A DNA stretch of 42,060 nucleotides from Acidobacteriota bacterium (GTDB lineage Bacteria > Acidobacteriota > UBA6911 > RPQK01 > JAJDTT01), in the NCBI GenBank assembly GCA_028874215.1, contig JAPPLF010000095.1, forward strand, positions 1-42,060. The letters are read 5' to 3'. Positions 17,586 through 20,147 of the stretch are shown piece after piece. Both the position numbers and the translations under genes were made by a program. The notes under the pieces are model-generated. The model did not search any database. It was given only the letters and a program-made list of their open reading frames with translations, and was not told where the DNA came from. How positions within the stretch are numbered: position 1 is the first letter of the stretch; each line of letters begins with the position of its first letter.

Positions 17586-19985
17586 CTACGCTGTCCGTGA
17601 CAGGATCCTCACCGTGTCGGCGGCCGCCGTCACCGGATCCAATGCCGTGTCCGCGATTCCGGAAACCACCTTGGTGATGTTGTGGTCGGTGACCCCGGCA
17701 CGGGCCCAGGTGCGGACCGGCGAACGGGTCATGTAGACGGAGAAGGCGTGGTGTCCCGATCCGGGCCTCTCGCCGATGACGTGGAGGATCGCGCGTCTGC
17801 GGCCGGTCTCGCGAAGATTCCCGAAGAGCATTTCGCCGATGCGGTAGCCGGCGCGGACCCGTCCGTTCCGCACCACGATGTGCTCCGGCGCCAAATCGTG
17901 GCCGACGGCTTCGAGGCGGGTCCGAAGAGCCGCCAGGTAGGGATTCAGATGGCCGTCGTCGGTGAGCGAGTAGGCGTTCAAGCCGTCGGAGATGACGAGC
18001 TGCACGTCGTAGCGGTCCCCGCGGGCTTTGGCCAGACGGCGAATGGCCGAGGTCGAGGCGGCGTCCAGTTCCTCTCCGGTGGGGGGATGCAGGATGTAGT
18101 CGTTCCGGTCCCTGGACCGGCTTTTCACCATGATCGCCGAGGGGAGCCGGGTTTCGAAGTCCTTGGGCAGTTCGGCCCGGATGCACTTCTTGGAATCCCG
18201 GTAGAGATAGCGGACTCGTTGCCGGAGCCGGGGCTCCGGATCCCAGGGGTTCTTCCCGTGCCCCTCCGCGATGAACACGCCGCGTTTCCGCACCTCCGCA
18301 ATCCGGCGCCTGCCCTCGGCCAGGATCTCCCGGTCCGGGCGCCGGTCGCCCTTGGCCCGCAGGTACTGGAGATAGACCCACGTGGGTTGGCCGAAATGCT
18401 CCGTGGGCCTTCCCTCCGCGTCGATCACCTTCAGGGCCTGGAAGAAACGCCACATCACGTCGTTGACCTTGAACCCGAACTTCTCGCGGACACGGACGTG
18501 ATCCAGGAAACCGGTGGTCAGGTAACTCAGCATGGGATCGTTCTTGGTGGGCAGCGCCATCAGATAGGCTGGGTTGGCGGGCATCACCCGTTCGATGCAC
18601 CAGTTCAGGTCGTCCAGGTCGATGTCCATGTGGAGGGTCGAGCAGATGTCGAGGCCGATGGGCAAACCGTGAAGCTTGCCCATGACCGTGTCCTCCAGGC
18701 AGCAGCGAACGAGCTGCTCACGGGTCCTGAAGATCTCCGGCCCGATGAATCCGGCCACGTCGTTCAGGTGCAGCCAGGGCGCCGGCGTCCGGCCGGCGCT
18801 GCGCTGCGCCTTGGCCACCTCGTGAACCAGGGCCCGGGCGAACCCGTACTTGCGCGTTTCGTGCAGCACCATGTCGAAGCCTTTGCCGTGACCGTTGGTG
18901 GCATCGGCGCCTTGTCCCGTCTCGAAGTAGAAGCCGTACTTCCCGGTCCTCCGCTCGGCGTGGGACACCATCTTCTCGACCGAGAGGTCGAAGGTCGTAT
19001 TGGCGTCCGTGACGCCGCCGAGGCTCTGGAACCAGATCGCGGTGGACCCGGGGTCCCGCCGTTCCACCTCGGCCTGCACGTCGACGTGGGAGAGGACGCA
19101 ATGGGGCAACGCGTCTTCCAGGCCGAACACCTCCAGGATTTCAGCCAGAGCGCGTTGAATGGAGGCGACAGAAGCGACTTCGCTGGAGACCGGGTTGGTT
19201 CCCAGCACCACGTCTCCGACGGCGTACGACCACCCGTCGAAGACCTGCCATCGGATGTCGTCGACGTTGTCCGTGGGCGAGTTCGGCTGAATCCGGGCGC
19301 CCATGTACCCTTTGGCGCCGAGGTTGGAATGGGGCAGCGGATTGAAGACCTTCCGTCCCACCGCGATCAGTTCCTCGTTGCTCATCAACTTGACCACGCA
19401 CCCGATGATGTCGCTGGGCAGACCGGGCATGATGTCCTTGATGGCAGCTTCCTCTTTCCGGAGCAGGAAACGTTTCAGGTCGCCCAGCGTCCAGCCGGCG
19501 ACGGTTCGGGTGATCTCGCGGTCAACCACGGTGTCGATGTACGACGAAACGGAGTCTTCGAAGACCGGACGGGCGATCAGATCGCCGACGCGAGTGTTGG
19601 CCAGCAGGGCCCGGGCCCGGGCTCGCGCCTGCTCGTCCGGTGCGGCCACGCCGATGGCCTGGTCTCCTTCCTTGAATTCATTGGCGGCCCCCAGCAGTTG
19701 CCGGTAGAGCGCCGGGTCGAACCGGCCTTTCAAGCGCGCGATGTAGGCAAAGATGCCCTCGTCGCGATCGGAGGCGGAAGTTGCAACCCCGGCCTTGCGG
19801 ACGGCTCTGGCGCCCGCTCCAACGACCCAGAGCGAGGTTCCCGCAAGCAGGCGCGAAAGGAAGGATCGGCGAGGGGAGGTCAGGCGGGTTGGAAACTCCG
19901 GGGAGAACGATTCGGTTTCCGGCCGCCGCCGTAGTGCGGAGGAGTCATCAAAACGGGATTCGGGGGTCCGGACTTGGGAAGGCAT
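17586..19985 (-). CDS. eutBC: Fused EutB-EutC ethanolamine ammonia-lyase with apparent Tat signal
   Basis: A 799-aa single chain with both subunits of adenosylcobalamin-dependent ethanolamine ammonia-lyase (ethanolamine to acetaldehyde plus ammonia). The EutB part (about 75-530) keeps GARIQPNSPTD, LGTNPV, FYFETGQGAD, GLDICSTLHMDIDLDD and MALPTKNDPMLSY, which carry the active-site Arg, Gln, Asn, Glu and Asp of the E. coli enzyme. The EutC part (about 660-799) keeps VQLVISDGLNAYSL, VRNGRVRAGYRIGE and VIGERPGSGHH. Residues 39-60 (PRRSFLSRLLAGTSLWVVGA) look like a Tat signal. ATG 19985 follows AGGAG; a longer frame would run into tRNA-Pro. No eutA, aldehyde dehydrogenase or microcompartment gene is near. 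The usual enzyme is cytoplasmic with separate subunits. Confidence 0.85.
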   Translation of the reverse strand: MPSQVRTPESRFDDSSALRRRPETESFSPEFPTRLTSPRRSFLSRLLAGTSLWVVGAGARAVRKAGVATSASDRDEGIFAYIARLKGRFDPALYRQLLGAANEFKEGDQAIGVAAPDEQARARARALLANTRVGDLIARPVFEDSVSSYIDTVVDREITRTVAGWTLGDLKRFLLRKEEAAIKDIMPGLPSDIIGCVVKLMSNEELIAVGRKVFNPLPHSNLGAKGYMGARIQPNSPTDNVDDIRWQVFDGWSYAVGDVVLGTNPVSSEVASVASIQRALAEILEVFGLEDALPHCVLSHVDVQAEVERRDPGSTAIWFQSLGGVTDANTTFDLSVEKMVSHAERRTGKYGFYFETGQGADATNGHGKGFDMVLHETRKYGFARALVHEVAKAQRSAGRTPAPWLHLNDVAGFIGPEIFRTREQLVRCCLEDTVMGKLHGLPIGLDICSTLHMDIDLDDLNWCIERVMPANPAYLMALPTKNDPMLSYLTTGFLDHVRVREKFGFKVNDVMWRFFQALKVIDAEGRPTEHFGQPTWVYLQYLRAKGDRRPDREILAEGRRRIAEVRKRGVFIAEGHGKNPWDPEPRLRQRVRYLYRDSKKCIRAELPKDFETRLPSAIMVKSRSRDRNDYILHPPTGEELDAASTSAIRRLAKARGDRYDVQLVISDGLNAYSLTDDGHLNPYLAALRTRLEAVGHDLAPEHIVVRNGRVRAGYRIGEMLFGNLRETGRRRAILHVIGERPGSGHHAFSVYMTRSPVRTWARAGVTDHNITKVVSGIADTALDPVTAAADTVRILSRTA

Positions 19986-20070
19986 TGAACTCCTGCCCGG
20001 TGGATCGGCGCCGCAACCGGGGCGGCCCGTGCAGCTCGCGGGGCGCCGCTGGAAAGGACTCCGGAAATGC

Positions 20071-20147
20071 TGGTCGGGACGGGGAGATTCGAACTCCCGA
20101 CCCCCTGAACCCCATTCAGGTGCGCTACCAGACTGCGCCACGTCCCG
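20071..20147 (-). tRNA. tRNA-Pro (anticodon GGG)
   Basis: All arms fold: acceptor CGGGACG/CGTCCCG, D-arm GCGC/GCGC, anticodon stem CCTGA/TCAGG with loop ATGGGGT (anticodon GGG), and T-arm GGGAG-TTCGAAT-CTCCC. The 3' CCA is encoded. It follows merR and ihfA on the same strand, an order also known in Pseudomonas. Confidence 0.96.

Follow-up and report, generated by a model that had tools for sequence, protein, structure and literature searches.

A predicted twin-arginine export signal on single-chain EutB-EutC ethanolamine ammonia-lyases from an Acidobacteriota bacterium and other phyla

Analysis of a 42,060-nucleotide contig from an Acidobacteriota bacterium (JAPPLF010000095.1, hereafter the window) identified a gene in which both subunits of ethanolamine ammonia-lyase (EAL), EutB and EutC, are joined in a single chain behind a predicted twin-arginine translocation (Tat) signal peptide. 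This tagged single-chain form is not peculiar to the window genome. We infer export, cofactor loading and activity from comparisons among relatives, which suggest that the fused enzyme is probably loaded with adenosylcobalamin in the cytoplasm, exported via Tat, and cleaves ethanolamine outside. To our knowledge adenosylcobalamin radical enzymes are known only from inside cells, and action outside the cytoplasm would be surprising for one of them. A literature search, which covered mainly papers available without subscription, returned no report linking EAL with twin-arginine signals or export.

The open reading frame extends from ATG 19985 to a stop at 17586 (Table 1), and the claim of the first-pass annotation that EutB and EutC share one 799-residue frame was borne out by these coordinates and by Pfam matches above the curated cut-offs for both EutB (PF06751, 451.7 bits) and EutC (PF05985, 106.1 bits). 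The protein also scored above the cut-off of the NCBIfam EutB model and below that of the NCBIfam EutC model (78 of 230 bits), indicating that the EutC half is divergent. It is the sole EutBC match in its 5.7 Mb genome, which is 97.5% complete. The closest solved structures are EAL chains of Listeria and E. coli, and the protein is about 30% identical to the large subunit of the E. coli enzyme. An AlphaFold2 model of residues 63-799 (pLDDT 91.9, pTM 0.90) fits both chains of the E. coli enzyme, with TM scores by target of 0.88 for 3abo_A and 0.69 for 3abo_B, as the EutBC fold predicts.

Table 1. Positions of the EutBC gene and its parts in the window.
Feature	Position	Strand	Basis
Single-chain EutB-EutC ethanolamine ammonia-lyase, 799 aa, with N-terminal Tat signal (predicted)	17586..19985	-	ORF; Pfam EutB and EutC; PDB matches 2qez_A, 3abo_A, 3abo_B
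Ribosome-binding site AGGAG, four bases (TTCA) ahead of ATG	19986..19994	-	...GCAGGAGTTCA-ATG; identical AGGAGTTCA in same-genus homologue L002
Predicted Tat signal peptide, residues 1-61: n-region, RR motif, h-region, AxA (A59-R60-A61)	19803..19985	-	Sequence; motif kept in relatives
Twin-arginine codons R39-R40 within TSPRRSFLSRLL	19866..19871	-	Sequence; consensus over relatives
EutB domain, residues 95-529	18399..19703	-	Pfam; R231, Q233, N264, E355, F413, D446 at substrate pocket
EutB-to-EutC linker, about 78 aa, mostly helical in AlphaFold2 model m47b4cb433e00	18165..18398	-	
EutC domain, residues 608-797, with GRVRAGY and GERPG	17595..18164	-	Pfam

The N-terminus has the sequence features of a Tat substrate, and the twin-arginine hydrophobic segment noticed in the first-pass annotation held up: an RR-x-hydrophobic motif (SPRRSFLS, twin arginines at residues 39-40), kept among relatives, is followed by an uncharged hydrophobic stretch (SFLSRLLAGTSLWVVGAGARA), after which A59-R60-A61 offers a plausible cleavage site, and the start codon lies upstream. 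The AGGAG-TTCA that precedes the ATG is the same in the nearest relative, a homologue from the same genus that is 95% identical (L002), and a codon comparison of the two genes across the signal is too shallow by itself to show selection. A start downstream of the twin arginines had been named in advance as a finding that would count against export, and an in-frame scan of the window gene found no usable start codon between the motif and the conserved core. The first in-frame start after the motif, a TTG, comes at residue 85, already inside the EDxFxYIxRxxGxFD stretch common to the family; the natural product must therefore carry the RR segment.

The motif recurs among homologues. A scan of genome contigs yielded 442 relatives, and the best 80 of the 442 were read; these were the ones most similar to the window protein, and the proportions therefore describe its near and middle relatives. 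Further loci were samples from the window's phylum and the phyla of genomes G306 and G310. The first-pass annotation had proposed searching fused EutBC homologues for conservation of the Tat segment, and had set homologues beginning after residue 70 or so with no RR motif as evidence against its reading; most were found to carry the segment. Across 130 single-chain EutBC loci, the RR motif was present in 106, 44 with a lipobox-like cysteine, while five had RK, one had KR and 18 had no signal (these counts are of loci and not of independent events, some being one genome met twice or near-copies). None of the 26 separate EutB genes carried RR, and one had a KR that is a chance match. This conservation, set against the separate genes, rules out a chance origin for the motif in the single-chain form; in shuffled upstream stretches, from an earlier subset of 105 proteins, an RR match arose in 11%. 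The relatives share a consensus of [S/R/H/N]-R-R-x-F-L and a Gly/Ala-rich hydrophobic run, and the distance from RR to the KEGD core in the RR-bearing loci is nearly constant at 54-75 residues, most commonly 69-72.

These data bear on the simplest alternative, that the window protein is an ordinary cytoplasmic fused lyase whose RR stretch is a chance occurrence or precedes the true start. Such fusions appear to exist, as the more distant loci L007-L010, L124 and L127 encode unsignalled, presumably cytoplasmic proteins, and some Myxococcota paralogues lack a signal too. Retention of RR-x-F-L and the hydrophobic stretch across phyla, together with the lipobox-like cysteines and the window gene's want of a start before residue 85, makes this explanation improbable for the window protein.

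By record titles, the tagged group includes Planctomycetota, Myxococcota, Acidobacteriota, Bacteroidota, Ignavibacteriota, Balneolota, Verrucomicrobiota and Thermodesulfobacteriota; the Balneolota member is present only in the RK form, so the RR motif is claimed for at least seven phyla. The exported type is usually the sole EAL type of its genome. On a 104-row non-redundant tree, signal (RR, RK or KR) versus no signal required a minimum of two changes. This was a quick tree with a long-branch warning at the outgroup, which makes the root and the placement of those Myxococcota paralogues that have no signal (L059, L062, L069, L109, L160 and L168) uncertain; on one reading, these paralogues and L150/L152 may have lost the signal.

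Several variants were seen among the relatives. EutBC without an export signal was found in Myxococcus/Archangium-type genomes (L059, L062, L069, L109, L160 and L167-L170), and some genomes carry a signalled copy beside an unsignalled one (pairs L039/L059, L041/L069 and L044/L062). RK replaces RR in L088, L090, L093, L100 and L107, from Cyclobacteriaceae and Balneolales. An Acidobacteriota locus nested within the tagged group, L006, has KR and a strongly hydrophobic, Sec-like signal ending in LASA.

The substrate pocket is intact. E. coli R160/Q162/N193/E287/F329/D362, the residues of that pocket, align with R231/Q233/N264/E355/F413/D446 of the window protein, and all six are invariant in 44 diverse relatives. 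In the EutC half, with its GRVRAGY and GERPG motifs, G708, R709, V710, R711 and G738-G742 are invariant in the same 44-row alignment, in agreement with the earlier observation that the EutB active-site motifs and the B12-side motifs of EutC are kept. The invariance of the six pocket residues weighs against the possibility that the protein is exported as a corrinoid-binding protein, its catalysis lost, that scavenges or holds cobalamin at the cell surface, since a mere binder would not need them. We regard that possibility as unlikely, despite the common lipoprotein form, the lack of an adjacent pathway partner, and the consideration that extracytoplasmic cobalamin would be easier to explain by capture than by supply. 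An exported B12 lyase acting on an amino alcohol other than ethanolamine would fit the modest identity to the E. coli large subunit and the low NCBIfam EutC score, but the unchanged ethanolamine-pocket residues make a different substrate very unlikely.

The fused enzyme, as we envisage it, would fold and acquire adenosylcobalamin in the cytoplasm, the site of cofactor synthesis, and the Tat system, which transports folded proteins, would then carry the loaded enzyme across the membrane, the fusion holding the two halves together through export. The enzyme would be released to the periplasm in the window organism, whereas Myxococcota and some Bacteroidota would anchor it as a lipoprotein. Outside, it would convert ethanolamine freed from phospholipid head groups to ammonia and acetaldehyde, both of which pass membranes unaided and can diffuse in, so that neither an ethanolamine permease nor a microcompartment would be needed. 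An ATP-dependent reactivase could not repair enzyme with spent cofactor outside the cytoplasm, and the lyase would thus be a use-and-replace enzyme. Predatory and polymer-degrading bacteria are among the frequent hosts, and for these we suggest phospholipid head groups as a likely ethanolamine source.

The earlier proposal of an exported, cofactor-loaded lyase gains support from comparative evidence, namely the conserved RR, the lack of a downstream start, a TatC in the window genome (214 bits) and two PduO-type cobalamin adenosyltransferases, the latter found when the genome was checked for B12 genes as had been advised. Against this reading stand the light sensitivity of adenosylcobalamin and its manufacture in the cytoplasm, the short life expected of a radical enzyme without a reactivase, the want of an adjacent partner to support any pathway, and the few members with RK or KR and the Myxococcota copies with no signal. 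Reductive dehalogenases have a fold unrelated to that of EutBC and perform redox chemistry, and they are not adenosylcobalamin radical enzymes. They resemble the window enzyme in being corrinoid enzymes with a Tat signal, which in PceA and its like is bound by a chaperone, and they are examples of corrinoid enzymes serving as Tat substrates (PMC8905343). On balance, we favor the broader view that a widespread adenosylcobalamin radical enzyme family works outside the cytoplasm, a loaded lyase, free or lipid-anchored, releasing ammonia and acetaldehyde with neither permease nor microcompartment.

If the enzyme is exported loaded, B12 leaves the cytoplasm enzyme-bound in many Myxococcota, Planctomycetota, Acidobacteriota and Bacteroidota. 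The arrangement would be a third solution to ethanolamine use, beside a permease with a cytoplasmic enzyme and microcompartments, and would spare the cytoplasm acetaldehyde production. Cultured hosts, including Myxococcus, Archangium, Algoriphagus and Echinicola, make direct testing possible.

Compared with the two-chain EutBC of E. coli (3abo) and the Listeria large subunit (2qez), with which it shares both domains, the fold and the mapped pocket residues, the window enzyme is a single chain with a Tat signal, and its gene has no adjoining eut operon, microcompartment genes or eutA. The first-pass annotation had remarked on this isolation, and the observation stands insofar as no eutA, eutE, shell gene or permease was found among the flanking genes scanned. 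Thirty-six sampled separate-EutB genomes from the same phyla are, like the exported-type genomes, without eutA, so a missing eutA is not diagnostic, and eutA loss was rejected as a mark of export. The only EutA match in the window genome (28 bits over 45 residues) was identified as FtsA by its sequence and its position downstream of FtsQ. Aldehyde dehydrogenases, also listed for checking, are encoded by several genes in the genome, none of them tied to the EutBC gene.

EutA proper (>170 bits) was found in four of 80 genomes (G304, G305, G371 and G391), and in the first three it lies directly before a divergent EutBC fusion on the same contig, as at G304:C72:11022-14392 (Polyangium) and G371:C58:72275-75784. 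The fusions of Polyangium G304/G305 and of G371/G391 are single chains, as in the window, but share only about 32-34% identity with the window protein, occur in genomes with true EutA and, in L124/L127 (G371/G391), have no Tat signal. Polyangium holds both EutBC kinds at separate loci; the G304 fusion shares its genome with the exported form.

The eat permease (TIGR00908) scored above cut-off in none of 38 exported-type genomes versus 13 of 36 separate-EutB genomes (Fisher p 2e-5, a value weakened by genome relatedness; stratified chi2 13.2), with next to no difference within Planctomycetota alone, and in none of six unsignalled-fusion genomes. The contrast is in keeping with an exported enzyme that would need no permease, but as a comparison among related genomes it does not show how ethanolamine is handled.

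A gene neighborhood conserved across phyla was considered and rejected, as no neighbor family of the relatives occurred in more than three of 126 nearest neighbors, and recurring cases were clusters within genera, common planctomycete families, or antisense ORFs of the EutBC gene. At Rfam gathering thresholds the window contained only tRNAs, with no cobalamin riboswitch or other RNA. Upstream of the window gene are a MerR gene and a tRNA-Pro (ggg; 20071-20147, minus strand), the latter sharing the strand of EutBC and lying 85 bases from its start codon. Also beside it are a convergent amidohydrolase gene and one for an M14 peptidase. The amidohydrolase gene (PF04909; 16654-17562, plus strand) is separated from the EutBC gene by about 20 bases between the stops, and its product begins MRIHRRELLRQVGGAGLGLPLLAASG, which is a Tat-like N-terminus.
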